Assembly: GCF_030758935.1 (NCBI RefSeq)
Contig: NZ_CP132333.1
Location: forward strand, 3,782,992-3,846,991
Direction: 5' to 3'
From: Geothrix sp. PMB-07
Lineage (GTDB): Bacteria > Acidobacteriota > Holophagae > Holophagales > Holophagaceae
DNA: 64,000 bases
Shown here: piece by piece, positions 2,446-28,612 of the stretch
Layout of the letters: the number at the start of each line of letters is the position of its first letter
How positions within the stretch are numbered: the first letter of the stretch is position 1
Notes under the pieces: generated by a model
Database searches by the model: none
The model's input: the letters and a program-made list of their open reading frames with translations, nothing else
Told to the model about the DNA's origin: nothing
Made by a program: the position numbers and the translations under genes

Positions 2446-4626
<2,181 letters not shown>

Positions 4627-4633
4627 GCCAAAC

Positions 4634-4674
4634 CCCCAAGATCAAGGGCCCCATTGGGGCCCTTGATCTTGGGG
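4634..4674. terminator. Perfect 19-bp inverted repeat between convergent genes
   Basis: The arms CCCCAAGATCAAGGGCCCC (4634-4652) and its exact complement (4656-4674) flank a 3-base loop. The repeat sits just after the pnp stop and just after the stop of the convergent glycosyltransferase, so it can serve both strands. There is no long T-tract on either side, so factor-independent termination is not assured; RNA 3'-end protection is another option. Confidence 0.7.
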
Positions 4675-4703
4675 TAGATGACACGCTGTATCGATTAATC
4701 TGG

Positions 4704-5936
4704 TCATTTAGGTACACCCCTGATAGCCTCGATAACCCTTAACATTTTGGCGGCCAAGGCTGCGCGATCATAGTTGACTGCTGCTTCTAGGCATCTGTTG
4801 CGCAACATCTTGAAGCGTTCAGAATCGTTTTTCAAAATCACCAGGGCGTCATGAAGGGCCTGAGCATCTCCCGAGTGGAACACAAGCCCAACCCCTTCCC
4901 TCTCGACGATTTCGGCGGATTCTCCTGAAACCCCATGCACCAATGGGATGCCCATTCCCATGGATTCGAACATCTTTGAAGGTATGACTGATGAGAACAG
5001 GTCGGTATCCCGCAAATGAATGATTGAAATATCCAGAAGCGACCAATAGCGAACAACTTCTGCTTTTGGCACAGAATCAATGAAGATGACACTCGTAAGC
5101 CCTCGCTCCTTAGCCTTGGCCTTGAGGTCGGCCTTGCAAGCTCCGTCGCCTAGAAGAAGAATGTGGATGTCCATCCGATTCTCCTTTTGGAATATTTCAG
5201 CTGAGTCAAGGAGAGTCTCTAAGCCATGTGCCATACCGTGGGTGCCAATGTAACCACCCACGAAGCAATCTTTTAGGCCTAGCTCTTCAGCAAGAGCCGC
5301 ATCCTTTGGAAGAGGGGCGAATCGAGACAAATCGACACCATTGGTTACAACATGAATTTTATGGCCATCGATCCCTCTTCCAATAAGGTTCTGTTTAAAG
5401 GAATTGGTGACCGAAATGACAGCATCAGCTCTCTGATATAAAAACAGTTCAATATGCTCGAGGCATCTAATAATCCAACTATCCTTCATCGCTCCGACCG
5501 CCTTGATGGATTCAGGCCAAAGGTCACGGAGCTCAAATATGAAAGGGATTCCTTTTAGCCGACCAACCAAATAAGCAGCGCATGCCGTGAAGAATTGCGG
5601 AGAGGTGCCAATGACCAGATCGGCCTGACGCACCAGCATGGCGGCCAAGGTTGAAGAGATCATAAAACTGACGTAATCCAAAATTCGAGCAAGGAAACCT
5701 TCATTTGCTGCGATATATGTCCACACCCGAATCACTCGGATCCCATCCATCCACTCCGTTTGCCATAGGCGATTTCGGTACCCGGCGAATACTTTCCCCT
5801 TTGGAAAGTTAGGGGCGCAAGTCAGCACAGTCACTTGGTGTCCTGCCTTGATCCACTCACGCGTGTGCTCATAGGTCCTCGAGGCTGGCGCATTGACCTC
5901 TGGAGGAAAGTTGTCTGTAAGGAAGAGAATATGCAT
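4704..5936 (-). CDS. Glycosyltransferase family 4, WbuB/WcaI-like
   Basis: A 410-residue GT-B retaining glycosyltransferase. The N-terminal Rossmann half starts MHILFLTDNFPPEVNAPASR and contains FELRDLWPESIKAVGAM, typical of WbuB-like enzymes. The C-terminal half has the nucleotide-sugar site (HVVTNGVDLSRF, GGYIGTHGMAHGLETLL, PSKMFESMGMGIPLVHG with the glutamate of the EX7E motif). WbuB of E. coli O26 adds N-acetyl-L-fucosamine to a lipid-linked sugar; the donor here is unknown. ATG at 5936 shares one base with the TAA of the upstream heparinase-like gene, which indicates translational coupling. It is the last gene of the amidation operon. Confidence 0.88.
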   Translation of the reverse strand: MHILFLTDNFPPEVNAPASRTYEHTREWIKAGHQVTVLTCAPNFPKGKVFAGYRNRLWQTEWMDGIRVIRVWTYIAANEGFLARILDYVSFMISSTLAAMLVRQADLVIGTSPQFFTACAAYLVGRLKGIPFIFELRDLWPESIKAVGAMKDSWIIRCLEHIELFLYQRADAVISVTNSFKQNLIGRGIDGHKIHVVTNGVDLSRFAPLPKDAALAEELGLKDCFVGGYIGTHGMAHGLETLLDSAEIFQKENRMDIHILLLGDGACKADLKAKAKERGLTSVIFIDSVPKAEVVRYWSLLDISIIHLRDTDLFSSVIPSKMFESMGMGIPLVHGVSGESAEIVEREGVGLVFHSGDAQALHDALVILKNDSERFKMLRNRCLEAAVNYDRAALAAKMLRVIEAIRGVPK

Positions 5937-7588
5937 TATGTCCAATCAAGAATAAAACAACAGGAGGCAGCCACCTTCGCCGGCTGAATGAGCAGTTGTA
6001 TGCAGCGGTTCGGGAGGGAAACCCCAAACTCAGGGTGCCACGCCGAGCTTTCCAAGGATGCCGATTGAGAGTCCGTCCACCAGCGTACGACCTTGTCACG
6101 CCATATTGCCTGGCCACCACTACCCTCGAGAGTTAGCCCAACCACAGGGTGGAAATACATTCGGGAAATAGCCTCTGAGAAGCCTCCACTTACAGTGTCA
6201 TGAACTTCAAGCTTTCCCTTTCCCAACACCCATCGACGCCTGTGCACAGGGCGCCCGGGAAGCCAGTGGTAGCCCGTGTGAGAGGCCTCGATGACAATCG
6301 CCTCGTTTTCGGAATGCACCCTGACACCTGATGGATAGGCACGCCTCGCCACCCTAAAACCACCCCAGACTTCCGATGAATTCCTCCCGTCGATTTGAAC
6401 CGTGGAGTGTGCGCCTGTACCGCGCTCGGCCTCACGCTCCGATCCAAGGCCATATCGCGACGTTCCTGAATTGACCAAGATGCGCTGCCCAAACAGAGAA
6501 AATTCGAAACTGAGCGTATCAGCGTGGGCGTGCCCGGGAAGGTAGTCGGGACCGACAGGCGCTACGTCAATCAAGAGCATCGCATCCCCAATGCAGGCCC
6601 GAACGTACCCCGAGGGCTCCAGATGGACCACCGCCCTACGATCTTCCGGCCAATCGAACCCGAGGCGTGAGGCATAGGCTAACAATTCACACGTCGGGGG
6701 TGCGATGCCCAAAGCCGCATCATTGAAGAAGCCGATCTCCTGATCGGGGTGACACATGGCCTTCAGCCAGCTACCCATATTTTGAATCACCTCAGGCCAC
6801 CCCGACACCTGAGCAGCCCACGGACGGAACGACAGGGGAAAAACCTTTGCAAGGTTCGCAAGGTCAAGCATGTCCTCGAATGCGAGAGCATGATACATGG
6901 TGCTTCGCTCGAAATGACCGCCGTCGGCAAGGACTTGTTCAGGGATCTGCCGTTCAAGGATCCTCATCCCGCAGCGAAGCCAGTTTTCAGCCTCCTCGCC
7001 TTCAAAAAAACAACCAGCGAAGACCAGCGCTTTTGCATTGGCGAACAAGTGGTTGCCGAGCAAATGATATTCCAGTCGTTTTCTCAAATGGCGCGTCTGA
7101 ATGGCAAGAGATTGGCGAGCAGCCGGCTCTAGAGAGCCACCTGCGAATGCCCACTTGATCCAGTTGATAATCCGGAGAGAGAGCGGGTAGGGTTCCCAGC
7201 CAACCCCATGAGCCGGCGGGTTGTCCCGAATCCATCGACGAATCAGTTCAGAATGCCAAGCAATGCGGTCATGAGCCGAATCGGCATTCAAATCATCGAA
7301 ATAGTGAAGGTTGTATGTCCAGAGTTTGGACATCCGTTCTGATTGCCAGTCTTCTTTGCAGCTCAGTTCCATTTCCTGGTTTAAAAAGCGGAACCGGTTA
7401 GCGGAAAGCATCGATCCAAAACGCTTCGCTGGAGAGCGCCAACTGCCAGTCACCACCCTTGCAGCAGGTGCGGGACGGAGGTTTGGCCTTGGTATACGAA
7501 GTATGAAAAAAAGCCTCCCAGCGAACTGCCTTACCTTGAGGTGACGCAGCGTGTGGAAGTACAGGGAGGCTTTATCGAGGGAATTCAA
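5936..7588 (-). CDS. Heparinase II/III-family protein in a biosynthetic operon
   Basis: About 550 residues with the heparinase II/III architecture: an N-terminal alpha/alpha toroid (DNPPAHGVGWEPYPLSLRIINWIKW, GNHLFANAKALVFAG) followed by a C-terminal beta-sandwich (GHAHADTLSFEFSLFGQRILVNSGTSRYG). The family comprises polysaccharide lyases acting on uronic-acid glycans. No signal peptide is obvious. The chosen start is a TTG at 7588 that overlaps the wecB TGA (TTGA) and has GGAG seven bases upstream; an in-frame longer reading would enter wecB. Homologues are often found inside O-antigen or exopolysaccharide operons, where they may trim or edit the polymer. That role is inference. Confidence 0.82.
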   Translation of the reverse strand: MNSLDKASLYFHTLRHLKVRQFAGRLFFILRIPRPNLRPAPAARVVTGSWRSPAKRFGSMLSANRFRFLNQEMELSCKEDWQSERMSKLWTYNLHYFDDLNADSAHDRIAWHSELIRRWIRDNPPAHGVGWEPYPLSLRIINWIKWAFAGGSLEPAARQSLAIQTRHLRKRLEYHLLGNHLFANAKALVFAGCFFEGEEAENWLRCGMRILERQIPEQVLADGGHFERSTMYHALAFEDMLDLANLAKVFPLSFRPWAAQVSGWPEVIQNMGSWLKAMCHPDQEIGFFNDAALGIAPPTCELLAYASRLGFDWPEDRRAVVHLEPSGYVRACIGDAMLLIDVAPVGPDYLPGHAHADTLSFEFSLFGQRILVNSGTSRYGLGSEREAERGTGAHSTVQIDGRNSSEVWGGFRVARRAYPSGVRVHSENEAIVIEASHTGYHWLPGRPVHRRRWVLGKGKLEVHDTVSGGFSEAISRMYFHPVVGLTLEGSGGQAIWRDKVVRWWTDSQSASLESSAWHPEFGVSLPNRCIQLLIQPAKVAASCCFILDWT

Positions 7589-8676
7589 AGAATTCGCTCC
7601 AGAACCTCCACGATCCGCTCGCCAGTATGGCCATCCCAAAGCTCTGGGATCGCACCCTTCTTCCACAAGCCTGAAAACAATTTATCCAAAACACCCTTTA
7701 CGTTATCAGGATTGGTCCCAATCAATTCGTTGGTGCCTTGTTCGACGGTTTCCGGCCTTTCCGTGGAATCCCTAAGGGTGATACAGGGAACGCCCATGAC
7801 AGTGGCTTCTTCAGTGATTCCACCCGAATCTGTGATGACCGCCTTGGAGTGCCGAACCAAGAAATTGAATTCAAGATAGGGTTGAGGGTCGACCAGGCGG
7901 AAGTTACTTGGAATCCCATCCACCTCGCGCAACGTCTTCGCGGTACGGGGATGAACAGGAAAGACGACGGGTAAACCTCTCGAAGCCTCTCCGATGGCTG
8001 CCAAAAGCCGTGTGAACCCTGAAGCGTCATCCACATTGGAAGGACGGTGCAAGGTTGCCACAAAATACTGCCCGGCGACCAATCTTTGATCTGCCCAGAA
8101 ATCTGGTGCCTTCAGGCGATCCATGTTCGCCAGCAGGGTGTCGATCATGGTGTTACCAACAAAGTGGATTTGGCCTTCGCGAACTCCGGTACTCCTGAGG
8201 GCCTTGTTGGCTGATGCGCTGGTGGTGAAAAACCAGTTGCTGATCGAATCGGTCACCATTCGGTTGATTTCTTCAGGCATGCTCCAATCACCGGAACGAA
8301 TGCCTCCCTCCACATGTGCCACTGGCACGCCGCACTTCTGAGCAGTGATGGCGCAGGCCATGGTTGAATTCACGTCACCAACAACCAAGCAGAGATCACT
8401 CCTCTGTTCCAGCAACACCTGCTCATAGCGGACCATGATCGCGGCCGTTTGTTCTGCCTGTGAACCCGAGCCAATCTCCAGATTGATGTGCGGCAAGGGG
8501 ATTCCCAACTGACTGAAGAAGTTTCCCGACATGCGAGGGTCATAGTGTTGGCCCGTATGGATCAGGCGGTAATCCAATTCTCCACCCTGAGCCTTCCTAA
8601 CCTCAAGAGCCTTGATGATCGGCGCAATTTTCATGAAATTGGGCCGAGCACCGGCGATGATGTCAATCCGCTTCAT
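7585..8676 (-). CDS. wecB: UDP-N-acetylglucosamine 2-epimerase, non-hydrolysing (WecB family)
   Basis: WecB-family enzymes interconvert UDP-GlcNAc and UDP-ManNAc, or act on related UDP-amino sugars as in WbpI and FnlC. The 363-residue protein starts MKRIDIIAGARPNFMKIAPI. It carries the family signatures HTGQHYD, VVGDVNSTMACAITA, HVEGGIRSGDWSMPEEINR, ATLHRPSNVDD and SGGITEEATVMGVPCITLRDSTERPE. The ATG overlaps the stop of the upstream oxidoreductase by four bases (ATGA), and its own stop overlaps the next start. Placement beside an amidotransferase set suggests a substrate more modified than plain UDP-GlcNAc. The chemical family is secure; the exact substrate is not. Confidence 0.9.
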   Translation of the reverse strand: MKRIDIIAGARPNFMKIAPIIKALEVRKAQGGELDYRLIHTGQHYDPRMSGNFFSQLGIPLPHINLEIGSGSQAEQTAAIMVRYEQVLLEQRSDLCLVVGDVNSTMACAITAQKCGVPVAHVEGGIRSGDWSMPEEINRMVTDSISNWFFTTSASANKALRSTGVREGQIHFVGNTMIDTLLANMDRLKAPDFWADQRLVAGQYFVATLHRPSNVDDASGFTRLLAAIGEASRGLPVVFPVHPRTAKTLREVDGIPSNFRLVDPQPYLEFNFLVRHSKAVITDSGGITEEATVMGVPCITLRDSTERPETVEQGTNELIGTNPDNVKGVLDKLFSGLWKKGAIPELWDGHTGERIVEVLERIL

Positions 8677-10802
8677 TTTGCCGCTCCTGCGAGCTCGATG
8701 CAGACTCGGCTCACTTCCATGATTTCCTCAAAGGGGATGGGCTCGATTTGGCGACCTTCTACAGCTGCCACAAAGGCCGCGGCGCAGGCCGATTGTCCCT
8801 TGTCTTGTTGCCAGAGGTTCATCGATTTGAAACCCGGCCACCCGAACCCAGCAAGCTTCCGGAAGTTATCCAACTGCAAGATTCGCCCACTGGCGAACAC
8901 TTCCAGCCGTTCCTTAGGAAAGGCCTTGCTGCCGTTTGCAAAATAGTGGATGGTGCCAACGGATCCATCCGCAAAGGCCAGCTGGATCGTCACCGTATCC
9001 CGAAGGGTTGTGGCCATGGGAGAGCATGCCCAACTCTCGATCGATGCTCCAACGAGGAAGCGAAGCAGGTCAATGAAGTGACAGGCCTCCCCGACAATGC
9101 GACCGCCTCCCGCCTCTGGATCTTGGGTCCAGTGGTCACCGGGAATGGCGCCGGCATTCACCGTCATGATAAGTGCCTTCGGTCCGCTAACCCCTTTGAG
9201 CAGATGCTTGATTTTTTGGACCTGGGGAGCAAACCGTCGATTGAATCCAACCATGAGGACTGGCTTTGAAGTCAATTCACTCCCTGCATGAACCGCCCCG
9301 ATCTCTTCAAGGTCATGCAAGGTCAAGCACAAGGGTTTTTCCACGAACACATGCTTTCCAGCCTTTAACGCCCTCACAACATAGCTGGCGTGACTGTCGT
9401 GCCGTGTGGTGATGACTATGGAATTGATTTCATTTACTGAAAACAGTCGATCGACGTCGGTAGTGACTTCTTCAAACCCGAACTTCCGCCCTGCGTGGAT
9501 CCCGCCCGCCCCGGTGCGAGAAGCCACCGTATGAAGTCGTGTCCCAGACTTCTTGAAAGCCGGCATTAGTACCGAGGTTGCGTAATTCCCAGCCCCCAGG
9601 AAGCCAATAGAAGCTGACCTCTCTCTTACATCGGGAGTGCTGGGCCTTGTCGCGTTAGTCAAGCGGATGGTCTTGGAGTCCGCTGAGGCTTCTAGACCTG
9701 GATATTTAAGAAGAATCCCCAGTGAGGGTTCAGCCCCGCCAATCAGTTCATAAGCCTTCCCGGCATCCTCAATGGCGAATTGGTGGGAGATGAGCGGTTT
9801 CACATTCAGCCGACCATCCGCCAGCATGTCGAGAACTGCCTGGAAATTCCTTTGCTCCGTCCAGCGTACGAACCCAACGGGATAATCGTTCCCCTTCTCT
9901 TCGTAGTTCGAATCGTACCGCCCTGGGCCATACGAGCAGGAAACCTGAAATGTCAGTTCTTTCTGGAAGAAGTCTGCCCGGGACAGTTCCAGGCCAGTGA
10001 CCCCCACCAAGACGATGCGCCCTCGCTTTCGGCACATGAGCGCAGCCTGGTGGATGGGTTCACTGCTTCGGGTCGCCGCAGTCACAATTACTGCATCGAC
10101 CCCGAGCCCTCTGGAAAAATCATGAGCCACGGCAACAGGGTCCTGGCCGGCGGCCAGATCGACCACCTCCGCCCCGAATTGCCGTGCTAGGTCGAGCTTA
10201 TCCTTGTCGAAATCGAGGCCCAGAACCTTGCAGCCATTGGCTTTCAGGAGCTGTACCGTGACAAGCCCAATGAGCCCCAGGCCAGTCACGACCACCATCT
10301 CCCCCAGCGTGGGGTTCACCAGACGAATGCCCTGCAGCGCAATGGCGCTCAGAACGGTAAATGCAGCTTCTTCATCCGAGACGGCATCAGGTACCTTGGC
10401 GCAAAGGTTCACTGGAACACTGACCATTTCGGCGTGATGGCCATTGCTAATGACCCGCTCCCCAACCTGAAAGCCCGAAAGGTCGGGGGCTATCTGTGCG
10501 ATGCGGCCCACATTGCAGTACCCCAGAGGGAGGGGTTGTTCCAACTTATTGAACACCGCTTCGATGGTCGGTTTGAGGCCATCGGTTCGGATTTTATCAA
10601 GCACCATGCGAACTTTGTCCGGTTGCTGTTGGGCCTTTTTCAACCAGCCAGCCTTCCCGAATTCGACTAGCATCCTCTCTGTTCCCGCCGAAACCAATGT
10701 CTGGCTCGTTTGGACCAGCAACTGTCCACGTTTAATCGCCGGAGTAGGCACCTCCACGACGTCGGTGGATCCCGTCTTCAGGTTCTGAAGTATCTGTTTC
10801 AT
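8673..10802 (-). CDS. Two-domain oxidoreductase: zinc-type alcohol dehydrogenase fused to Gfo/Idh/MocA
   Basis: A 709-residue fusion. Residues 1 to about 360 form a medium-chain dehydrogenase: MKQILQNLKTGSTDVVEVP, a GERVISNG catalytic-domain turn, and a Rossmann motif VVVTGLGLIGLVTVQLLKANG. Residues from about 395 form a Gfo/Idh/MocA NAD-dependent sugar dehydrogenase with SIGFLGAGNYATSVLMPAFK and the lysine motif HVFVEKPLCLT. Such bi-domain proteins recur beside heparinase-like genes and WecB in polysaccharide loci. An oxidation or reduction step on the nucleotide sugar is likely, but the substrate cannot be read from the sequence. It overlaps both neighbours by four bases. Confidence 0.85.
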   Translation of the reverse strand: MKQILQNLKTGSTDVVEVPTPAIKRGQLLVQTSQTLVSAGTERMLVEFGKAGWLKKAQQQPDKVRMVLDKIRTDGLKPTIEAVFNKLEQPLPLGYCNVGRIAQIAPDLSGFQVGERVISNGHHAEMVSVPVNLCAKVPDAVSDEEAAFTVLSAIALQGIRLVNPTLGEMVVVTGLGLIGLVTVQLLKANGCKVLGLDFDKDKLDLARQFGAEVVDLAAGQDPVAVAHDFSRGLGVDAVIVTAATRSSEPIHQAALMCRKRGRIVLVGVTGLELSRADFFQKELTFQVSCSYGPGRYDSNYEEKGNDYPVGFVRWTEQRNFQAVLDMLADGRLNVKPLISHQFAIEDAGKAYELIGGAEPSLGILLKYPGLEASADSKTIRLTNATRPSTPDVRERSASIGFLGAGNYATSVLMPAFKKSGTRLHTVASRTGAGGIHAGRKFGFEEVTTDVDRLFSVNEINSIVITTRHDSHASYVVRALKAGKHVFVEKPLCLTLHDLEEIGAVHAGSELTSKPVLMVGFNRRFAPQVQKIKHLLKGVSGPKALIMTVNAGAIPGDHWTQDPEAGGGRIVGEACHFIDLLRFLVGASIESWACSPMATTLRDTVTIQLAFADGSVGTIHYFANGSKAFPKERLEVFASGRILQLDNFRKLAGFGWPGFKSMNLWQQDKGQSACAAAFVAAVEGRQIEPIPFEEIMEVSRVCIELAGAAK

Positions 10803-11581
10803 CTAGCATTCATCCCAGCCGCACAAAGGGCATCTTTCTCATCGCGATTTGGATAATTAATCAACACTGCTCGGTATTTCCCTTTGAACACAAAAAGACT
10901 CCCGGCTGCCGCGCCAATGATTCCATGCCGCATAACAAGATCCTGCAGGTCAGCAAGCGATCCCGCCCCACCCAGGACGGTGAGAGGAACCGAAACCGCC
11001 TCCCGCACCTGGGCAATCAGGTCCAGATCGTATCCATTCATCTCACCATCATGGTCCACCGAGTTGAGGACGATTTCGCCGGCCCCCAGTTCCTCAACTC
11101 GCCGGGCGAAGGCGACTGGATTCAAACCTGTACGACGGGTGGCGTTGTGCGTCACGACTTCTGGCTTACGGAAAAGGCCCGTTTTCTTGACATCGATCAC
11201 CACCACCACACTCTGGTTGCCAACCCGCTTGGAGGCCTCAGAGATCAGTTCTGGCCTGTGGACCACGGCCGCACTCATGGCAACTTTTTCAACGCCCAGA
11301 CCGATGATGCGCTCAAGTTGGCTCGTGCTGTTGACGCCACCACCATAACAGAGGGGCATCCGGCACTCAGCGGCCAAGTGGGCAATGGTCTTGTAGTTCG
11401 GCTCATGTCCATTGCGAGTGGCATCAATATCCACAACCATCAACTCGTCCACTTCCTTCTCATTAAAGATCCGGACAGCGTTGATGGGATCGCCTACATA
11501 CTTATGAGCGCCGAATTGTACCGATTTCACCAAGCCGCCCTTGTGGATGAGCAGGCAGGGGATGAGCCGGGGCCGCAGCAT
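10799..11581 (-). CDS. HisF-like glycosyl-amidation protein (WbuZ type)
   Basis: A (beta/alpha)8 barrel of about 260 residues related to the cyclase subunit HisF of imidazole glycerol phosphate synthase. The N-terminus reads RPRLIPCLLIHKGGLVKSV. Histidine-pathway HisF has CLD there, and that aspartate is a catalytic residue; here it is leucine. The second aspartate (VVVVIDVKKTG) and the ammonia-gate barrel remain. This pattern is typical of WbuZ/WbpH-like proteins, which channel ammonia from HisH to an N-acetyl-sugar amidotransferase. ATG at 11581 is preferred to the TTG two codons upstream because GGAG lies eight bases before it. It overlaps the oxidoreductase start by four bases. Confidence 0.88.
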   Translation of the reverse strand: MLRPRLIPCLLIHKGGLVKSVQFGAHKYVGDPINAVRIFNEKEVDELMVVDIDATRNGHEPNYKTIAHLAAECRMPLCYGGGVNSTSQLERIIGLGVEKVAMSAAVVHRPELISEASKRVGNQSVVVVIDVKKTGLFRKPEVVTHNATRRTGLNPVAFARRVEELGAGEIVLNSVDHDGEMNGYDLDLIAQVREAVSVPLTVLGGAGSLADLQDLVMRHGIIGAAAGSLFVFKGKYRAVLINYPNRDEKDALCAAGMNAR

Positions 11582-11583
11582 CT

Positions 11584-12195
11584 TCAAATCTCCGCAAAGT
11601 TCTTGAGCAGGCCGATGCCCCAGCGATGGCTCTTTTCGGGATGGAACTGAGTTCCAAAAACGTTGGCCGATTGGACTGCGGCTGCAAAGGTGATCCCGTA
11701 ATCCGCAGTCGCGATGACATCTGATTCATTCGAAGGCGCGACATAGTACGAATGCAAAAAGTAATACCGTGGAGACTCAAGTCCTCGGAACAAAGCGTTC
11801 TCTGGTGTGGGCTGGACGTCGTTCCATCCCATGTGGGGCAGGTGGGTGCGATCCTTCAATAGCGCTGCATCAAATCGCAACACCTCTGCATCAATCCACC
11901 CCAGGCCCGGCAAATCTCCTTCATCGCTCCGGCGGGTCATCATTTGCATCCCGACACAAATTCCGAGCACGGCCTTCTTATTGTGAAGCACCTGCTCATC
12001 CAAGGCCTCTCGCATGCCCGACTCATTCAGCCGCGTCATCGCCCAATCGAAGGCTCCCACACCCGGAAGGATTATCTTATCTGCTCTGTTCAATTCTTCC
12101 GCTGTTTTCACAGCCTGAACCGCGATGCCAATGCTTCGATAGATATTCGCAAAGGCTTGGATATTACCTAACCCATAGTCCACAAGGGCAATCAC
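11584..12195 (-). CDS. hisH: HisH-like glutamine amidotransferase for sugar amidation
   Basis: A class I glutaminase of 203 residues that releases ammonia from glutamine. The catalytic triad is visible: Cys80 in GICVGMQ, His185 and Glu187 in GTQFHPEKS. The N-terminus MIALVDYGLGNIQ and PGVGAFDWAM are standard HisH features. Alone it could pass as histidine-pathway HisH. It is fixed between the HisF-like and WbpG-like genes, and no other his gene is present, so it most likely supplies nitrogen for amidino-sugar formation as HisH2 does in Pseudomonas B-band O-antigen. Its ATG overlaps the amidotransferase stop by four bases. Confidence 0.9.
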   Translation of the reverse strand: MIALVDYGLGNIQAFANIYRSIGIAVQAVKTAEELNRADKIILPGVGAFDWAMTRLNESGMREALDEQVLHNKKAVLGICVGMQMMTRRSDEGDLPGLGWIDAEVLRFDAALLKDRTHLPHMGWNDVQPTPENALFRGLESPRYYFLHSYYVAPSNESDVIATADYGITFAAAVQSANVFGTQFHPEKSHRWGIGLLKNFAEI

Positions 12196-13331
12196 CGCTT
12201 GCCCCCAAGTTCCATCCCCAGAGCATGCATCACCCGCGCTCCCAGATCATAGAGTTGACGCTGATTCTTATAGTCCTTGTAGGTTTTTTGAGGCAGAAGC
12301 ATGTACCCATTCAATTCATCAACGGAAATTCCGAGTTTGTTTGCAACAAACTCGAGCTCCTGGTGGATGGTGACCTCGTCGCAGGTCGGCTGTTCCAACT
12401 GAAGCAAGGCTTCCTGCCGCGTCATCTGATTCGTCACAATCAGACTTGAATATTGAACGCGCCTTACGTCATACCCAAAGCGCTTGGGCAGCCAATAACT
12501 CTCGTAGAACTTGGTGAACCGGGACTCAAAATGCTTCTGAGGATATGGCTGCCAGCCGAACCGGTCCATCAGCAGCTGTCGGGCGTCGTTTTTGATATAG
12601 GGCAGACAGTTGAGCGGACGGAGCACCTTGATGCCCTTCACATAAGGCAACCAGACCTTGTGCCAGAATATGGCTGTAAAAGGGAAGTGCTTCAACGGGA
12701 CGGTTCCGAACTGGCGATGAATATCTCGCAGTTGCCGTGAGTCCGATTGGTAGTACATCCATTCAATTGGATTTCTAATGCATTCCGTCGACAGATTGGC
12801 ACCAGTCAAGATGCATTTGACATGGTGTTGTCGCGCAAATTTGTACATGGTCGCAAAAAAGGCATGATCCTGGGGTGCATCGATATGCGGCACCCCCGAC
12901 TTGAAAAAGGCCAACTGAAGATCTTTCATCTCTTCCCAGTCAATGACTTCGGTAAAGAGATCGAGTCCCAGCCCATCCACCAAGCGCTCAATGTTGTTCA
13001 CGGCGATCTGGGAATTCCATCCAGCATCCACATGGAACACCAGTGGCCTCAGTCCAAGCTTTTCCTTGGCAACGTAAGTCAGGTACGAGCTATCAATGCC
13101 CCCACTCATTCCGATGATACAGTCGAAGTCCTTGCCCCTGCCTTCAGCACGGATAAGATCAACCATCCGCTCGAGTTCGTCTTCACCCCGCTTGTCGGTA
13201 TGCCAATTGGGGAGCGTGTGCTGATAGAAGGTGTTGCAATGGTCGCACACACCTTTTTCGTCAAACACGATCATGGAGTCCGTCGTGTCCATGACGCAAC
13301 TGCTGCAGATTTGATAGTTTCTATTAGCCAC
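12192..13331 (-). CDS. N-acetyl sugar amidotransferase (WbpG/PseA/WbuX family)
   Basis: ATP-dependent enzyme that converts an N-acetyl group on a nucleotide sugar to an acetamidino group, using ammonia from the HisH/HisF pair. It has an N-terminal zinc-ribbon-like part (CSSCVMDTTD and CDHC), an ATP-pyrophosphatase P-loop SGGIDSS at residues 76-82, and conserved blocks VDAGWNS and TGANLSTECIRNP. Homologues begin a few residues before the first CxxC motif, so the GTG at 13331 (379 residues) is preferred. A TTG at 13373 would add 14 residues. This is the first gene of a seven-gene operon with four-base overlaps at most junctions. Missing here are the dehydrogenase, aminotransferase and acetyltransferase that make the substrate in Pseudomonas. 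Confidence 0.9.
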   Translation of the reverse strand: MANRNYQICSSCVMDTTDSMIVFDEKGVCDHCNTFYQHTLPNWHTDKRGEDELERMVDLIRAEGRGKDFDCIIGMSGGIDSSYLTYVAKEKLGLRPLVFHVDAGWNSQIAVNNIERLVDGLGLDLFTEVIDWEEMKDLQLAFFKSGVPHIDAPQDHAFFATMYKFARQHHVKCILTGANLSTECIRNPIEWMYYQSDSRQLRDIHRQFGTVPLKHFPFTAIFWHKVWLPYVKGIKVLRPLNCLPYIKNDARQLLMDRFGWQPYPQKHFESRFTKFYESYWLPKRFGYDVRRVQYSSLIVTNQMTRQEALLQLEQPTCDEVTIHQELEFVANKLGISVDELNGYMLLPQKTYKDYKNQRQLYDLGARVMHALGMELGGKR

Positions 13332-13443
13332 AGAAGTCAGATTCTTTCTGGATTGCCCTCTTGGATTACCCAATCAACAGCAGAGGTTGAACCCAAGAGG
13401 AGAATTTGCATCGCGACCCGCCCCCGTCGAGGTAGAGGCATCT

Positions 13444-13477
13444 GGAATTGAACTTGGTTGTCAACCAAGGCAGTTCC
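13444..13477. promoter_or_regulatory. 34-bp imperfect palindrome upstream of the amidation operon
   Basis: The core CTTGGTTG-T-CAACCAAG (13453-13469) is a perfect 17-bp palindrome, flanked by weaker matching arms GGAATTG and CAGTTCC. On the minus strand the core contains TTGACA, a -35-like hexamer facing the amidotransferase gene about 115 bases away. The dyad resembles an operator overlapping a promoter. No regulator can be named. Confidence 0.45.
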
Positions 13478-13554
13478 AACGATATCAAGGAATTCCTTCC
13501 TTTCACAGCGATCTGTTCATTCGCGGGTGTGACTCAAAACCCGAAAACCAAGCC

Positions 13555-13654
13555 AGGGATTCTGTGGAAATCAAGCCTTGGAGGGGCATCCTAGTGGAGC
13601 CCGGTCAAGGAGGCAGAGATGCCAAGGAAGGGACACAGCGAAGAGCAGATCGTC
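13555..13654 (+). repeat. Truncated left end of the IS3-family element seen at 19627
   Basis: About 100 bases, including the motif CAAGGAGGCAGAGATGCCAA and the first codons MPRKGHSEEQIV, closely match the start of the element at about 19660-19753. Similarity stops abruptly after 13654, where IS5-like transposase sequence begins. The fragment is a relic left by recombination or deletion. Confidence 0.7.
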
Positions 13655-14641
13655 GGACCCGAACCAAGAGCTGGTGCGGCTGGCGGCGGTGATCCCCTGG
13701 GAGGATCTGACGAAGGAATTCGGCCGGATGTATTTGCCGAATCTAGGGCGTCCTGGGATTCCGGTTCGGCTGATGGCAGGCCTGCATCTGCTGAAGCACA
13801 CCTACGGGCTTCGGATGAGCAGGTGGTCAAGGGCTGGGTGGAGAATCCCTACTAGCAGCATTTCTGGGGCGAGGAGTTCTTCTCGGTATCCCCTGCGGGG
13901 CTACGCGAGTCAAACAGACATATCCAGCACCGCTACCTTATCCATCCCTCGCAGATGACTTGCTGGCGGGGCCGCATCGGGGAGAAGGGCGCAGAGAAGC
14001 TGCTCCAGGCCACGATCGCAGCAGGGAAGGCCACTGGCACCATCAGAGGGAAGAGCTTCGAGAAGGTCATCGTGGACACGGCGGTGCAGCCGAAGGTGGT
14101 ACAGCACCCGACGGATGCGAGGCTGTATCGGATGGTTTACGGGGCCATGCTGAGGATCGCGGAAGCCGAGGGCATCAGGCTGCGGCAGAGTCACCGGAAG
14201 CTCATGGAGCGGGGTTTCCGGAAACACGGAGGACATGCGAAGGCCCGACAGTTTAAGCGGGCGCTGAAGGTGCTCCGCAGTTTGAAGACCATGGTCGGCT
14301 GGGTGCAGCGGGATGTGGAGCGGAAGCTCACGGACGAGGGGTATGCGCGGCACCGGAGGGCGCTGATCCTCTCGGAGTTCGCCCTGACCCAGAGCCGGAA
14401 GACGAAGGGCAAGGTTTACAGCCTGCACAGGCCCGAGGTGGAGCGGATCACGGGCCAAGTCTCGGCCATGACTTTCGTCGACAAAGGGTATCAGGGGCAC
14501 GGCGCGGATCCGACCAGGAGCAGCCAGGTGCTCATCAGTGGCGCGCGCAAGCTCAGCAAGCTGCTCAAACGGGACCTGGCCTGTCCCCTCCAAATAGAGC
14601 CAAGCTAAATGTTAAGGTCCACTCCAAAGGAGTCGGATCCA

Positions 14642-14908
14642 ATGAGGACAAGCAAGTTCACCGAGGAGCAGATCGTGGGGCTTCTCAGAGAGGCGGAGAA
14701 GGGGGAGCAGACGGTCGATGCCCTCTGCCGGGCCCGTGGGATCACGGCGCAGACCTTCTATCGATGGCGAAAGAAGTATGGCGGAGTCGAGGTTTCCGAT
14801 GTCCGGCACATGCGGCAGCTTGAGAAGGAGAACGCCCAGCTCAAGCGCCTTCTGGCAGAACGGGAGCTGGATATCGCAGCCCTGAAAACGGTTCTCCGAA
14901 AAAAATGA
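14642..14908 (+). CDS. IS3-family orfA (helix-turn-helix protein), copy 1
   Basis: An 88-residue protein (MRTSKFTEEQIVGLLREAEK) with a helix-turn-helix (ALCRARGITAQTFYRWRKKYGG) and a leucine-zipper-like coiled coil (RQLEKENAQLKRLLAERELD). OrfA binds the IS ends and limits transposition. ATG at 14642 follows AGGAG by about nine bases. It ends at a run of seven A residues, where a -1 ribosomal frameshift would fuse it to orfB. Confidence 0.9.
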   Translation: MRTSKFTEEQIVGLLREAEKGEQTVDALCRARGITAQTFYRWRKKYGGVEVSDVRHMRQLEKENAQLKRLLAERELDIAALKTVLRKK

Positions 14909-15954
14909 GTGGCGCGTCGCAGCGAAAGGAGGGGGCGGCATACCTGACGGCCACCGGCTTCTCCCAGCGGCGCGCTGCCCGGGCCATGGGCCTGAGCCGT
15001 TCCTATGTCCGGTATTCACGCCGGGTGAAACTGGATGGGCTGGACGAGCGGATCGTCCAGCTTGCCCATGCCAACCCCCGCTATGGCCACCGGCGCGTCT
15101 GGGCCCTCCTGAGGCGGCTCCAGCTCCGGGTGAACCTGAAACGGGTCCACCGGGTTTTCAAAGCCCATGGCCTCCAGGTCCGGCGGCGTCCCAAAAAGCA
15201 CCTCCGGACCGGCCAGCATGTGCCGATGAAATCCGGGTATCCCAACCAGGTCTGGTCCTACGACTTCGTCCACGACAGCTGCCTGAACGGCGAGGTCGTG
15301 AAGTGCCTGACGCTCACCGACGAGTTTACGAAGGAGGCGTTGGTCATCGAAGTGGCCTCCTCCTTCAAGGCCGAGGAGGTCATGCAGGTCCTCAAACGCT
15401 TGTTCCAGACCCGGGGATGGCCCGCATTCCTGCGCAGTGACAACGGCCCCGAGTTCATCGCCCATGACCTCCAGGTCTGGCTGATGGCCACCGGTGCCCA
15501 GACCTTCTACATCCCCCCGGGCTCGCCCTGGGCCAACGGCGTGGCCGAGAGCTTCAACAGCAAGTTCCGGGACGAATGCCTGAACATGGAGGCCTTCTCC
15601 AGCCTGGCTGAGGCCAAGGTCATCGTCGAAGCCTGGCGCCGTCGCTACAACGAGGAGCGCCCGCACAGCAGCCTGGGCTACCTCACCCCAACCGAGTTCC
15701 GCTGCACCATTGAACTGGCTCAGCTCGGTCTCCCTGCGACGGGGGCTCTGCCCCCGGACCCCCGGGATTTATCGCTTTGGGCACCCCCGGTGGAGGCCAA
15801 CGCCCTGACAGAAAAGGCCAGGGCGTTTCCCCTGGCCAACACCGTCCGGTGCATCTCCGAAGCGCTCAAGTCGCTTCCCAGCGTTGCTCTACCCTCTCCG
15901 GAGATGGAAGCCAAGCTACCATCTCCTGGAAGCTCCTGGCCAACCGGCCATTAG
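14905..15954 (+). CDS. IS3-family orfB transposase (DDE integrase), copy 1
   Basis: A 349-residue catalytic half with an HTH_21-like N-terminal region (ANPRYGHRRVWALLRRLQL) and an rve integrase core. The DDE residues are visible in WSYDFVHD, LRSDNGPEF and GVAESFNSKFRDECL. Its ATG lies four bases inside orfA at the A7 slippery run, so the active transposase is probably the OrfAB fusion. The C-terminal 80 residues after PTEFRC are Pro/Ala-rich and poorly conserved in the family. The frame is intact, so the element may be mobile. Confidence 0.9.
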   Translation: MSGASQRKEGAAYLTATGFSQRRAARAMGLSRSYVRYSRRVKLDGLDERIVQLAHANPRYGHRRVWALLRRLQLRVNLKRVHRVFKAHGLQVRRRPKKHLRTGQHVPMKSGYPNQVWSYDFVHDSCLNGEVVKCLTLTDEFTKEALVIEVASSFKAEEVMQVLKRLFQTRGWPAFLRSDNGPEFIAHDLQVWLMATGAQTFYIPPGSPWANGVAESFNSKFRDECLNMEAFSSLAEAKVIVEAWRRRYNEERPHSSLGYLTPTEFRCTIELAQLGLPATGALPPDPRDLSLWAPPVEANALTEKARAFPLANTVRCISEALKSLPSVALPSPEMEAKLPSPGSSWPTGH

Positions 15955-19990: not shown

Positions 19991-20830
19991 GTGCGACGTT
20001 CGCTGGTGGACTGGATCCAAAAGGGCTATGGGTTCAGTGAGCGTCGCGCCTGCGGCCTTGTGAGCATCTGCCGGACAAGCGTCCGGTATAGGCACAGGCG
20101 GGACTCGCAAATCCCTTTACGAATGCGGTTGAAGGAACTGGCGGCAGCCCGAGTGCGGTTCGGCTATCGGCGTCTGACGGTGTTACTGCGGCGGGAGGGG
20201 TGGCACGTGAATGCGAAACGGGTCTATCGGATCTACAAGGAGGAGGGGCTGATGATCCGCACCAAACTGCGGAAGAAAATCGCACGGAGAAGGCCACTCA
20301 TCGCAGAACGGGCCAAGGCCCCGAATCAGCGCTGGAGTATGGACTTCGTGGCGGCCCGACTTGATGATGGGAGACCCTTCCGGATCCTGACGGTTGTGGA
20401 CCAGTTCACGAGGGAATGCGTGGCGATCCGGGGCAAGCCCAGGTTGAATGGCAGCGATGTGGCTGATGCCCTGGACTTGGCGGTTCGGGAGCGGGGCAAG
20501 CCCACATCGATCACTGTGGACAACGGAAGAGAATTCGCTGGGAAGGTGATGGACGCCTGGGCAGATGCCAGGGGCGTGCACCTGGCCTTCATTCGGCCAG
20601 GGAAGCCCACAGAGAATTCCTTCATTGAGAGTTTCAACGGCAGGCTGAGGGATGAGTGCCTGAACACGGAGATATTCCGGTCCATGGCAGAAATCAGGGG
20701 CAAGCTGGCCGCCTGGCGCTACGACTACAATCACCGCAGGCCACACAGCGCACTGGACGACCAGACACCGGCCCAGTTCGCAGCCCAGAATCCCGCGCTC
20801 GCGGGAGAATGGCCTGTCCCCTCCAAATAG
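19991..20830 (+). CDS. IS3-family orfB transposase, second element type; extreme C-terminus altered by IS insertion
   Basis: The 279-residue frame holds an HTH_21 region (RVRFGYRRLTVLLRREGW) and a complete rve core. DDE residues lie in RWSMDFVAARL, ITVDNGREF and SFIESFNGRLRDECLN. The frame is open upstream of 19991 and would normally be reached by -1 frameshifting from orfA. The inserted 1438-bp IS replaces the natural C-terminus after NPALAGE with WPVPSK. Without the insert the frame would read GPPRGAGLLLPDS and continue to a stop at 22317. All catalytic residues lie upstream, so activity may survive. Confidence 0.85.
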   Translation: MRRSLVDWIQKGYGFSERRACGLVSICRTSVRYRHRRDSQIPLRMRLKELAAARVRFGYRRLTVLLRREGWHVNAKRVYRIYKEEGLMIRTKLRKKIARRRPLIAERAKAPNQRWSMDFVAARLDDGRPFRILTVVDQFTRECVAIRGKPRLNGSDVADALDLAVRERGKPTSITVDNGREFAGKVMDAWADARGVHLAFIRPGKPTENSFIESFNGRLRDECLNTEIFRSMAEIRGKLAAWRYDYNHRRPHSALDDQTPAQFAAQNPALAGEWPVPSK

Positions 20831-20874: not shown

Positions 20875-21141
20875 ATGAGGACAAGCAAGTTCACCGAGGA
20901 GCAGATCGTGGGGCTTCTCAGAGAGGCGGAGAAGGGGGAGCAGACGGTCGATGCCCTCTGCCGGGCCCGTGGGATCACGGCGCAGACCTTCTATCGATGG
21001 CGAAAGAAGTATGGCGGAGTCGAGGTTTCCGATGTCCGGCACATGCGGCAGCTTGAGAAGGAGAACGCCCAGCTCAAGCGCCTTCTGGCAGAACGGGAGC
21101 TGGATATCGCAGCCCTGAAAACGGTTCTCCGAAAAAAATGA
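20875..21141 (+). CDS. IS3-family orfA, copy 2
   Basis: The predicted 88-residue protein is identical to that of copy 1, with the helix-turn-helix and leucine-rich coiled coil. It ends at the A7 frameshift run. Confidence 0.9.
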   Translation: MRTSKFTEEQIVGLLREAEKGEQTVDALCRARGITAQTFYRWRKKYGGVEVSDVRHMRQLEKENAQLKRLLAERELDIAALKTVLRKK

Positions 21142-22187
21142 GTGGCGCGTCGCAGCGAAAGGAGGGGGCGGCATACCTGACGGCCACCGGCTTCTCCCAG
21201 CGGCGCGCTGCCCGGGCCATGGGCCTGAGCCGTTCCTATGTCCGGTATTCACGCCGGGTGAAACTGGATGGGCTGGACGAGCGGATCGTCCAGCTTGCCC
21301 ATGCCAACCCCCGCTATGGCCACCGGCGCGTCTGGGCCCTCCTGAGGCGGCTCCAGCTCCGGGTGAACCTGAAACGGGTCCACCGGGTTTTCAAAGCCCA
21401 TGGCCTCCAGGTCCGGCGGCGTCCCAAAAAGCACCTCCGGACCGGCCAGCATGTGCCGATGAAATCCGGGTATCCCAACCAGGTCTGGTCCTACGACTTC
21501 GTCCACGACAGCTGCCTGAACGGCGAGGTCGTGAAGTGCCTGACGCTCACCGACGAGTTTACGAAGGAGGCGTTGGTCATCGAAGTGGCCTCCTCCTTCA
21601 AGGCCGAGGAGGTCATGCAGGTCCTCAAACGCTTGTTCCAGACCCGGGGATGGCCCGCATTCCTGCGCAGTGACAACGGCCCCGAGTTCATCGCCCATGA
21701 CCTCCAGGTCTGGCTGATGGCCACCGGTGCCCAGACCTTCTACATCCCCCCGGGCTCGCCCTGGGCCAACGGCGTGGCCGAGAGCTTCAACAGCAAGTTC
21801 CGGGACGAATGCCTGAACATGGAGGCCTTCTCCAGCCTGGCTGAGGCCAAGGTCATCGTCGAAGCCTGGCGCCGTCGCTACAACGAGGAGCGCCCGCACA
21901 GCAGCCTGGGCTACCTCACCCCAACCGAGTTCCGCTGCACCATTGAACTGGCTCAGCTCGGTCTCCCTGCGACGGGGGCTCTGCCCCCGGACCCCCGGGA
22001 TTTATCGCTTTGGGCACCCCCGGTGGAGGCCAACGCCCTGACAGAAAAGGCCAGGGCGTTTCCCCTGGCCAACACCGTCCGGTGCATCTCCGAAGCGCTC
22101 AAGTCGCTTCCCAGCGTTGCTCTACCCTCTCCGGAGATGGAAGCCAAGCTACCATCTCCTGGAAGCTCCTGGCCAACCGGCCATTAG
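21138..22187 (+). CDS. IS3-family orfB transposase (DDE integrase), copy 2
   Basis: The 349-residue transposase is identical in predicted sequence to copy 1, with an intact DDE core (WSYDFVHD, LRSDNGPEF, GVAESFNSK). Lack of divergence between the copies points to recent transposition or gene conversion. Confidence 0.9.
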   Translation: MSGASQRKEGAAYLTATGFSQRRAARAMGLSRSYVRYSRRVKLDGLDERIVQLAHANPRYGHRRVWALLRRLQLRVNLKRVHRVFKAHGLQVRRRPKKHLRTGQHVPMKSGYPNQVWSYDFVHDSCLNGEVVKCLTLTDEFTKEALVIEVASSFKAEEVMQVLKRLFQTRGWPAFLRSDNGPEFIAHDLQVWLMATGAQTFYIPPGSPWANGVAESFNSKFRDECLNMEAFSSLAEAKVIVEAWRRRYNEERPHSSLGYLTPTEFRCTIELAQLGLPATGALPPDPRDLSLWAPPVEANALTEKARAFPLANTVRCISEALKSLPSVALPSPEMEAKLPSPGSSWPTGH

Positions 22188-24722: not shown

Positions 24723-26258
24723 TTAATGTCGACGAGGGTAAACCACCCCAATTTTGGAAAGAACGTATTCTCTTTCATTTGGCAAAAGAAGCATCTTCCA
24801 TGCAAAGGCCCCAAACATAACGCCAGCCATCACTGGCGATTCCCATACGTGCTCACCAAATAGTCGTACAGCAGCTCCTTCCAGGACGAGAAGCAGCAGC
24901 AATGGTAAAACCGCAATAATCCCAGGCGAAAAAGCCTGTGTGGTGAAAACCTGAAGGGAGACCCCCAGTCGCGAACTCCTCGGAAGGTTAAGCCCTAAAT
25001 GGAAGGCCACACCGACGGCACCTCCGAGAACTGTTCCCCAGGCCACACCTATTGCACCGAATTTCCACCCCAAAAATGTAGATGCTAATATATTTGAAAA
25101 TCCCTCAGCCAATGGGCCAAGAATGATTCGACGATGGTCCCCAGCCCCCATGGCCAATAGATTAAACGGAAGCATCGACAAACGAATTACAGTCGCAAGA
25201 AGCAGTACACTAAGTATAGGTGAGATCTTCGATGCATAGTCATGGCCAACATACCCGTTAAGTAATATTGGCTTTAAAACACAGTATAACCCTGTAATTA
25301 TCCCCAGTAGCAGTAGATTCCAGCGAGTAGTGTTTAGAAGCAAGCCCATCAAACGCTTACGATCTCCCTGCGCGTCGAGAGCCGCACCCGCTGGTAAAAT
25401 GACACTTAGGATGGCGGATTGCGCTCCAACCAGCAGCGTTAATAGGCTGGAGGCAATCGCAAATCCCCCCACGGCAGAGAAATCAAAGCGGGCCACCAGT
25501 ACCAGATCTAGGCCGCTCACAAGAAGCATTGCGAAATTCCATACACTGAGACTGGTGCAATAATCCATGAGCTCTCTGAATGATTGACTATTCACAAGCT
25601 GTTTTGATATCAATAAATTGGGGACATAGTGCTTAATGGCAAATAACAGAGCGCTATAACTCAATATATTAATTCCACCAAAAATTGCACCCATCACCAC
25701 CAAACCTTTACCCCAAGCAGCAGCCAGAACAAGACCAAGAGCGGTACTAAGACGTCCTACAATAATAATCATGGCGGGTATTTCGTTCCTTTGAAGTCCG
25801 ACGAAAACTCCATTTAAAACAGAGAATGGAAGCCCAAGTGCCAGCGAGCTACCCACGAGGATGAGAGCTATTTTGGCATTAGCTAGAAGCGAAGCTGGAA
25901 TTGCCGGAAAAAACAGGGGTAGCATTCCAGATAAAGCAAATATCGCGAAAATACTAATTACAGCTGATCCAGAGAGCAGTGCCACTGCCGTCGAGACAAT
26001 CTGATTGCGCTGGATTACATCATTTCGAGCATCTGTATGCGCAGTGAATCGCCCCACTGCAGTTTGAAGTCCAAAATTGACAAGCCCCGTATAACCACCA
26101 ATTTGAAGTAAGAGAGCCCAAACACTGTAAGTGTCCCTATCCAGCAAGCGTACGAGAAACGGTGGCAGTGCGACTGCGAGTAGGGCACCAGCAGCGCCAC
26201 TTGCTAAATTCGAAACAACATTTCGAATTATGAGCCGTCGATCAAGTGGGTCCGCCAT
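24723..26258 (-). CDS. Lipid-linked oligosaccharide flippase (Wzx-like)
   Basis: A 511-residue polytopic protein of the polysaccharide transporter (PST/MATE-like) family that would flip undecaprenyl-linked repeat units across the inner membrane. It opens with RRLIIRNVVSNLASGAAGALLAVALPPFLVRLL, the typical first helix. It then alternates about 12 to 14 helices with the conserved block GAGDHRRIILGPLAEGFSNI between helices. ATG at 26258 shares one base with the rfbB TGA (TGATG). Codon use grows more AT-rich toward the 3' end of the operon. Confidence 0.88.
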   Translation of the reverse strand: MADPLDRRLIIRNVVSNLASGAAGALLAVALPPFLVRLLDRDTYSVWALLLQIGGYTGLVNFGLQTAVGRFTAHTDARNDVIQRNQIVSTAVALLSGSAVISIFAIFALSGMLPLFFPAIPASLLANAKIALILVGSSLALGLPFSVLNGVFVGLQRNEIPAMIIIVGRLSTALGLVLAAAWGKGLVVMGAIFGGINILSYSALLFAIKHYVPNLLISKQLVNSQSFRELMDYCTSLSVWNFAMLLVSGLDLVLVARFDFSAVGGFAIASSLLTLLVGAQSAILSVILPAGAALDAQGDRKRLMGLLLNTTRWNLLLLGIITGLYCVLKPILLNGYVGHDYASKISPILSVLLLATVIRLSMLPFNLLAMGAGDHRRIILGPLAEGFSNILASTFLGWKFGAIGVAWGTVLGGAVGVAFHLGLNLPRSSRLGVSLQVFTTQAFSPGIIAVLPLLLLLVLEGAAVRLFGEHVWESPVMAGVMFGAFAWKMLLLPNEREYVLSKIGVVYPRRH

Positions 26259-28110: not shown

Positions 28111-28610
28111 CAGGCGTGCACCCGGCGAGCCCGCTCATCCTTCACGAACGGGTTGTTGGGATCATCCTCGTGGCGGATCTCGTCGATGGGTTCCAGCTTG
28201 CCCTTGCCCATAAACAGCCGGTCCGGGCAGTTGATGACGAAGCCCGGCTCATGGCTGATGCAGCGGTAGCAGTGCACCACGCCCTTGGGGATGATGGCCG
28301 AGCCCGGGTTGTTCACCCCCATGGCCACTTCTATCCGGTTGCAGTAGGTGGGGCTGTCCGGGCGGTTGTCCCACAGGGTGAGCTTGAAATCCCCGGGCCC
28401 CACCCAGCAGAACAGGTCTGCCTGGTCCACGTGCTCGTGGGGCCCCCGCAGCACGCCGGGATTCGTCACGCTCACGTAAGACATCTCGGGCCGGAACCAC
28501 TCGGGCAGCTCGTCGTGGCGGAAGATCTCCGCCAGCCAGCCGCGCTCATCCACGAACTTGCGGAAGGACGTGATCACCACGCCCTCGATAGGGCCCTTCC
28601 TGAATTCCAT
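28110..28610 (-). CDS. rfbC: dTDP-4-dehydrorhamnose 3,5-epimerase family protein (short RmlC variant)
   Basis: A 166-residue cupin that should epimerise C3 and C5 of the 4-keto sugar. It has the RmlC start (IEGVVITSFRKFVDERGWLAEIFRHDELP) and a core LRGPHEHVDQADLFCWVGPG, then AIIPKGVVHCYRCISHEPG. Classical RmlC enzymes read RGLHYQ at the active-site histidine; here the motif is RGPHEH, and the length is some 15 residues short. It may be a divergent true epimerase, since it sits in a complete rfbA-C-D-B operon, or it may make a different 6-deoxy sugar. Confidence 0.82.
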   Translation of the reverse strand: MEFRKGPIEGVVITSFRKFVDERGWLAEIFRHDELPEWFRPEMSYVSVTNPGVLRGPHEHVDQADLFCWVGPGDFKLTLWDNRPDSPTYCNRIEVAMGVNNPGSAIIPKGVVHCYRCISHEPGFVINCPDRLFMGKGKLEPIDEIRHEDDPNNPFVKDERARRVHA

Positions 28611-28612
28611 GC

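Follow-up and report, generated by a model that had tools for sequence, protein, structure and literature searches.

Organization of the locus

The window analyzed here is a stretch of 64,000 nucleotides from Geothrix sp. PMB-07 (phylum Acidobacteriota; contig NZ_CP132333.1, positions 3,782,992 to 3,846,991). It contains a seven-gene operon on the minus strand, running from position 13373 to 4704 in the order WbuX, HisH2, HisF2, BIDOM, WecB, HEP and GT4 (Table 1). HEP is a 550-residue protein of the heparinase II/III fold, and BIDOM is a bidomain oxidoreductase in which a medium-chain dehydrogenase/reductase (MDR) of the alcohol dehydrogenase (ADH) type is fused to a Gfo/Idh/MocA domain. All six junctions of the operon are overlaps, of 4, 4, 4, 4, 4 and 1 bases. 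The initial annotation had placed HEP between the WecB epimerase and a glycosyltransferase, with stops and starts overlapping as TTGA and TAATG; direct inspection of the sequence confirmed this, TTGA being the WecB/HEP overlap and TAATG the HEP/GT4 overlap. The HEP open reading frame (ORF) extends from TTG at 7588 to a TAA stop at 5936, and an alternative longer frame from GTG 7666 overlaps WecB; TTG 7588 was taken as the start because the N-terminus of the HEP family agrees with it. No FnlA/B-like gene is present inside the operon.

Beyond the operon, the window encodes an EpsG-family protein, two transferases of family GT2 and one of the hexapeptide type, as well as a Wzz match that falls short of its cut-off and a 512-residue frame without a Pfam match. 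Judged by eye, the latter and the frames at 26258–29356 appear to be Wzx and RmlB/D/A. Taken together, these neighbors indicate that the operon belongs to a surface-polysaccharide locus.

Table 1. Genes of the heparinase-fold operon, in order of transcription.
Feature	Coordinates	Strand	Profile matches
WbuX/WbpG-type N-acetyl sugar amidotransferase	12192..13373	-	TIGR03573 299.5 bits, cut-off 203.2
HisH2, HisH-type glutaminase subunit (for acetamidino modification by neighbors)	11584..12195	-	TIGR01855 226.7 bits, cut-off 105.4
HisF2/AglZ acetamidino modification protein	10799..11587	-	NF038364 377.7 bits, cut-off 310
BIDOM, bidomain oxidoreductase: MDR (ADH) + Gfo/Idh/MocA fusion	8673..10802	-	PF00107, PF01408
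WecB-fold C2-epimerase	7585..8676	-	PF02350 324 bits; TIGR00236 299.8 bits, above cut-off
HEP, heparinase II/III-fold protein	5936..7588	-	PF07940 (Hepar_II_III_C) 160 bits, PF16889 (Hepar_II_III_N) 67 bits
GT4 (WcaI-like) glycosyltransferase	4704..5936	-	PF13579, PF13692

Active site, fold and localization of HEP

HEP exceeds the Pfam cut-offs of both heparinase domains (22 bits for PF16889, 24 bits for PF07940), and scores 48 and 38 bits against the curated heparin-sulfate lyase HepC families NF045573 and NF045572, below their cut-offs of 700 and 600. A profile search of the PDB with HEP at E 0.01 returned heparinase III chains as the sole relatives. Residues N179, H180, E227, Y232, H353, H355, R385, R389, H394, R412 and R451 are invariant in all 73 aligned members of the family. 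An alignment with heparinase III matches N179, Y232 and H353 to its catalytic Asn, Tyr and His. As judged from the alignment, the lyase-type active site is therefore intact across the family, and reuse of a dead enzyme as a scaffold is unsupported.

The predicted model of HEP has a mean predicted local distance difference test (pLDDT) score of 96.5. In a Foldseek search with this model, ranks 1–5 are heparinase III structures (VIA Z 28–31), followed at rank 6 by human dermatan sulfate epimerase 1 (DSE, PDB code 6hzn; E 4.3e-16, VIA Z 23.6 over 469 residues, 13% identity). DSE is a C5-epimerase that uses the scaffold of a lyase and acts on a polymer in the secretory path. Thus, the fold accommodates both lyases and a C5-epimerase, and its presence in HEP and DSE shows no function by itself. 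A bacterial C5-epimerase is absent among the 50 matches listed by each fold search, which weighs neither way. HEP differs from heparinase III and HepC lyases, its closest relatives in fold and site residues, by its shorter length (550 versus about 640–700 residues), its extra N-terminal helices (the first 35 residues, forming two helices, lie outside the heparinase III matches), its apparent lack of an export signal and its biosynthetic operon.

The apparent lack of a signal peptide, suspected in the initial annotation, was upheld by an analysis of hydropathy alone. HEP reaches 1.32, compared to 2.2–2.4 for three signal-peptide proteins of the window and 0.97 and 1.18 for two cytosolic ones. 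The 53 full-length family members range from −0.19 to 1.79, with none above 2.2, and none of the 53 contains an export-signal-like stretch by this measure.

Linkage of HEP to BIDOM and GT4

Relatives of HEP were sought in 84,980 species genomes, and the best 80 of at least 574 confirmed relatives, a selection that favors close kin, were kept as loci. Of the 58 loci with at least 3.5 kb of sequence upstream of HEP, 53 have BIDOM within that distance on the same strand (one of the 53, L057, has a weak stand-alone Gfo/Idh match only). Of the 69 loci that reach 1.5 kb downstream, 64 have a GT4 gene in that interval. The linkage, for which a count of co-occurrence had been suggested as a check, is thus conserved, and the recurrence of the same neighbors in other phyla makes the arrangement more than chance; with the family profiles, it also rules out a frame artefact. 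Of the three observations held at the outset to speak against a module (an export signal, an intact lyase site and unconserved linkage to the oxidoreductase), only the lyase-type site was found. An otherwise intact module is interrupted in L050, where a Schlafen/Fic-like gene (7543–8880) stands between BIDOM and WecB; it was considered as a possible dehydrogenase and rejected, as was L113 18208–19428, which has no family match. A second, distant heparinase-like gene (25–27% identity) occurs within about 10 kb of HEP in L087 (867–2072), L090, L100 (2–1429), L115, L119 (3–1430) and L126.

Among 297 genomes of the phylum of the window, HEP matches were found in 49, BIDOM in 55 and both in 37; the two are no more than 5.5 kb apart on one strand in 21. 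Where the HEP match is strong (E 6.1e-32 or better; 17 genomes), BIDOM is present in 16 and linked in 11. Fisher tests on the counts take no account of kinship. In seven genomes (G019, G092, G128, G137, G169, G177 and G208), heparinase-like frames of about 690–1300 residues immediately precede BIDOM, with the gene order reversed, so the pairing reaches a second heparinase subfamily. Within the genus Geothrix, HEP occurs in one other genome and is lacking in at least 20, and the locus is therefore accessory.

A draw of 369 gammaproteobacterial genomes contained HEP members in 21 (23 places) at E 1e-60; the 80 loci include at least two of these records. Of the 20 places examined, 12 have BIDOM no more than 3.5 kb upstream and one has it downstream; it is not seen in the stretch at the other seven. 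The HEP members at these seven places are 29–45% identical to the query, and their settings look unrelated to polysaccharide synthesis, except at L177 and L178, where WecB matches occur. Of the genomes behind them, G579, G451 and G601 lack BIDOM, and G496 (the source of both L171 and L179), G674 and G357 carry it elsewhere. Three of the gammaproteobacterial loci, L179, L180 and L182 (HEP at about 8.7–10.6 kb), represent a divergent subfamily of 29–33% identity near what appear by eye to be topA- and Sua5-type genes.

Partner enzymes and two routes to a probable shared precursor

BIDOM retains invariant residues in both halves, including E488-K489-P490 and H575/D578 (48 sequences), and its two-domain model has a pLDDT of 87.8. 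The structures listed by a fold search with this model were alcohol dehydrogenases and further proteins of the MDR class, along with some chains of polyketide synthases and a small number of Gfo/Idh enzymes; a sugar 3-dehydrogenase did not stand out among them. The GT4 proteins beside HEP are of two types, mostly about 60–67% or 23–30% identical. The WecB of the module is closest among solved structures to the UDP-GlcNAc (uridine diphosphate N-acetylglucosamine) 2-epimerase 4neq (276 bits), the UDP-diacetamido-glucuronate 2-epimerase 8sxv (226 bits) and the UDP-GlcNAc 2-epimerase 1f6d (149 bits). These relatives allow, and do not prove, that it inverts C2 of UDP-GlcNAcA (the N-acetylglucosaminuronic acid derivative).

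The supply of precursor was compared among the 43 loci whose flanks extend at least 7 kb upstream of HEP and 2.8 kb downstream, counting as module WecB those proteins with 60% identity or more. Fourteen loci contain module WecB, 11 a canonical WecB, none both and six an intermediate form. WecC accompanies all 11 canonical WecB genes and never module WecB; five of these WecC-type neighbors were scored, and all exceed the cut-off for UDP-N-acetylmannosamine (UDP-ManNAc) dehydrogenase. The two routes switch eight times on the HEP tree by parsimony. Since module WecB and the WecB-WecC pair are mutually exclusive, the precursor they share is probably UDP-D-ManNAcA (N-acetyl-D-mannosaminuronic acid). 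A TviB-type dehydrogenase is present in two of the 14 module-WecB loci. Elsewhere in the genome of the window there are a TviB-like dehydrogenase scoring 463.7 bits (cut-off 592) and a UDP-glucose-dehydrogenase-like gene, and no dehydrogenase above the WecC cut-off. Eight of the 43 loci have acetamidino genes and 12 have AsnB-type amidotransferases, one locus having both.

Modules without BIDOM

On two plasmids, one from E. coli (IncC) and one from Citrobacter, wecB-wecC is followed by polymerase and transferase genes and then by HEP-GT4, and BIDOM is absent from both entire records. The clusters on these plasmids, L128 (pCRE10.2, IncC, typed conjugative; 6330–15925) and L129 (Citrobacter; 4162–14903), resemble O-antigen clusters, contain wecB, wecC, a polymerase or ligase-like gene, HEP and GT4, and have insertion sequence (IS) elements nearby. 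HEP matches occur in nine of 5426 E. coli genomes, four of them on chromosomes; in the two chromosomes inspected, the wecB-wecC...HEP-GT4 locus adjoins gnd, and one was seen to start at galF. Three Thauera loci (L052, L058 and L059) contain HEP and GT4 in genomes that lack BIDOM altogether.

Overall, BIDOM is missing genome- or record-wide in 11 of the 22 HEP genomes or records searched, most of which were chosen for having no BIDOM directly upstream. Its presence changes at least seven times on the HEP tree, with three changes forced by well-supported branches, and its absence is clustered (seven changes compared to a shuffled mean of 10.6). On this tree, long branches lead to L034, L172 and L169, and for the E. 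coli chromosome row the absence of BIDOM was scored from the locus alone. BIDOM is thus an optional partner of HEP, and a strict trio of WecB, BIDOM and HEP was rejected, since WecB can also be replaced by WecB plus WecC. The functional module of these three proteins proposed in the initial annotation recurs across genomes, in a looser form in which GT4 is as constant as BIDOM, and WecB and BIDOM can each be replaced or missing.

Comparison with known systems

The operon resembles the L-FucNAc/L-FucNAm (N-acetyl-L-fucosamine and its acetamidino derivative) module FnlABC plus WbuXYZ, in which a WecB-family C2 inversion and a C3/C5 change are followed by acetamidino transfer. The same order of steps would apply in the window, where the oxidoreductase fusion and the heparinase fold take the place of FnlA/B.

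A further parallel by description is the zbdP-hepP operon of Pseudomonas aeruginosa PA14, in which the oxidoreductase fusion comes first and a 1650-bp heparinase gene follows 8 bp later (PMC5732420). The two proteins have the same domains as BIDOM and HEP, with the fusion upstream of a 550-residue heparinase in one operon, and no typical signal was found in HepP by PSORTb. Unlike the window, the PA14 pair has no WecB between its members, acetamidino genes are not mentioned in the sections consulted, and HepP is presented as a virulence-related heparinase rather than an O-antigen enzyme. A section heading of the same report states that pellicle and biofilm are affected by loss of either gene. 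The PA14 O-antigen repeat consists of alpha-L-GalNAcA (N-acetyl-L-galactosaminuronic acid), alpha-D-QuiNAc (N-acetyl-D-quinovosamine) and alpha-L-Rha (L-rhamnose) (PMC2997053).

WeeE and WeeF of Acinetobacter venetianus RAG-1 have been postulated to make UDP-L-GalNAcA, and their homologues GnlA and GnlB are found in seven A. baumannii K loci, with GnlB alone in an eighth, KL215 (PMC9676051). By description, the two are an adjacent pair that may correspond to BIDOM and HEP, and GnlB without GnlA recalls HEP without BIDOM. In Vibrio cholerae, the Vibrio polysaccharide (VPS) contains L-GulNAcA (N-acetyl-L-gulosaminuronic acid), for which an origin from D-ManNAcA by C5 inversion has been suggested (PMC3901696), and the legend of a review figure ascribes the step to "an unknown C5-epimerase" (PMC4432689). 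Mutants of the heparinase-like gene VV0358 of V. vulnificus behave as capsule-deficient (PMC6037467), which would be in line with a synthetic role if VV0358 belongs to the HEP family. Among the papers listed by searches of an open-access library, none has a title or abstract opening that gives the HEP family a C5-epimerase role, and most were consulted at that level.

A proposed three-inversion pathway and its alternatives

Conversion of D-GlcNAcA to L-GalNAcA was computed to require inversions at exactly C2, C3 and C5, and conversion to L-GulNAcA at C2 and C5. The reading we favor, at a probability just under even, is that the module serves to produce, in the cytoplasm, an N-acetylhexosaminuronic acid residue of L configuration for a surface polysaccharide and that HEP is a hexosaminuronate C5-epimerase; its stereochemistry we infer. 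WecB would invert C2 of UDP-D-GlcNAcA to give UDP-D-ManNAcA, and BIDOM would invert C3 to give D-AltNAcA (N-acetyl-D-altrosaminuronic acid), with one domain oxidizing and the other reducing. In the lyase active site of HEP, the C5 proton would then be removed and returned from the opposite face to yield L-GalNAcA, as DSE does on its own polymer; Asn, Tyr and His have catalytic roles in lyases of the heparinase fold. GT4 would transfer or extend the L-GalNAcA residue, and WbuX-HisH2-HisF2, whose presence in the window suggests an additional acetamidino group, would turn an N-acetyl group into an acetamidino group. The three inversions correspond one to one to WecB, BIDOM and HEP, and L-GulNAcA is therefore the predicted product where BIDOM is missing, as in the E. 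coli, Citrobacter and Thauera loci. Which carbon each enzyme inverts, at what level the substrate is used and precisely which product results are what we infer. Of three candidate substrates for HEP, a nucleotide sugar, a lipid-linked residue and a longer chain, the lipid-linked one is favored by the fold, whose known members act on chains; HEP may work at the inner face of the membrane on the product that is linked to lipid. The early suggestion that HEP may edit lipid-linked intermediates comes near to the favored C5 epimerization, and is indistinguishable here from action on a nucleotide sugar, while no support was found for the suggestion that HEP is a transferase.

Abstraction of the C5 proton by a lyase site can end either in C4 elimination or in reprotonation from the other side. 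Reprotonation is favored by the biosynthetic context, the missing export signal and the match to three inversions. The strongest competing explanation, itself unlikely, is that HEP is a true but cytoplasmic lyase that acts on faulty intermediates, lipid-linked or polymeric, to trim or recycle them, a clean-up role of the kind that AlgL plays for alginate. The invariance of the lyase-type residues and the proximity of heparinase III in fold agree with a lyase, as does the activity of recombinant HepP on heparin plates (PMC5732420). Export-signal-like stretches are missing from the full-length members and typical signals from HepP, the capsule-deficient behavior of VV0358 mutants speaks for synthesis on the assumption that this gene is a family member, and a clean-up role leaves the ties to BIDOM and ManNAcA supply unexplained. 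Lyase and epimerase roles of HEP are also not exclusive, since AlgE7 is listed with both activities (PMC4432689).

It is improbable that HEP is a C5-epimerase whose neighbors BIDOM and WecB act for different residues in the repeat unit and are only co-inherited with it. The repeated changes in BIDOM presence, its occurrence without heparinases and the differing virulence of hepP and zbdP mutants (PMC5732420) are compatible with this explanation; direct adjacency, the 4-base overlaps and the agreement of three inversions with three genes argue against it. Least probable, roughly a one-in-ten prospect, is a uronate dehydratase or other elimination enzyme whose unsaturated product is reduced by BIDOM to a 4-deoxy or otherwise altered uronic acid. 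The active-site chemistry would be the same and pairing with a double oxidoreductase is frequent, but half of the genomes or records searched, mostly those chosen for having none directly upstream, as well as the two plasmid records, have no BIDOM, and the PA14 sugar is a normal L-GalNAcA (PMC2997053).

Several observations weigh against the C5-epimerase reading that we favor. No WecB is seen within the stretch examined in 12 of the 43 loci, and the divergent HEP relatives are located away from polysaccharide genes. We know of no HEP family member with a measured epimerase activity. Eleven of the 55 BIDOM genomes of the phylum, some of them incomplete (three at 67–82%), have no PF07940 protein, and BIDOM therefore has other roles. 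Recombinant PA14 HepP cleared heparin plates, indicating lyase activity, although the sections consulted describe no active-site mutant control; moreover, killing of Caenorhabditis elegans by PA14 is reduced by loss of hepP and not of zbdP (PMC5732420), a poor fit with two steps of one pathway.

Mobile elements near the operon

Two transposase ORFs at 14905–15954 and 21138–22187 have identical 349-residue translations with integrase-core domains and bracket a GT2/methyltransferase stretch, and a different transposase lies between them at 19991–20830. This stretch may be a mobile insertion that divides the polysaccharide locus. Directly upstream of WbuX, at 13578–14608, are frames that by eye resemble a broken transposase, one of which, of 217 residues, has no Pfam family; the operon promoter region may therefore border an IS remnant.

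Implications for the family

More broadly, and as a tentative proposal with somewhat less than an even chance, the widespread cytoplasmic heparinase-fold branch, which has no assigned role, would be the missing C5-epimerase of bacterial L-hexosaminuronic acids, giving L-GalNAcA with BIDOM and L-GulNAcA without it. Epimerases for C2, C3 and C5 would thus together convert UDP-GlcNAcA to an L-sugar, and gene content would predict the sugar. If this is true, sugar synthesis would be the task of many proteins that carry the annotation "heparinase" or "alginate lyase family" in loci for O-antigen and capsule, the claimed virulence heparinase of P. aeruginosa among them. The branch would also offer a candidate enzyme type for the V. 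cholerae VPS step ascribed to an unknown C5-epimerase (PMC4432689), and L-GalNAcA could be told from L-GulNAcA from the genes. HEP would then be a counterpart of dermatan sulfate epimerase in the bacterial cytoplasm.

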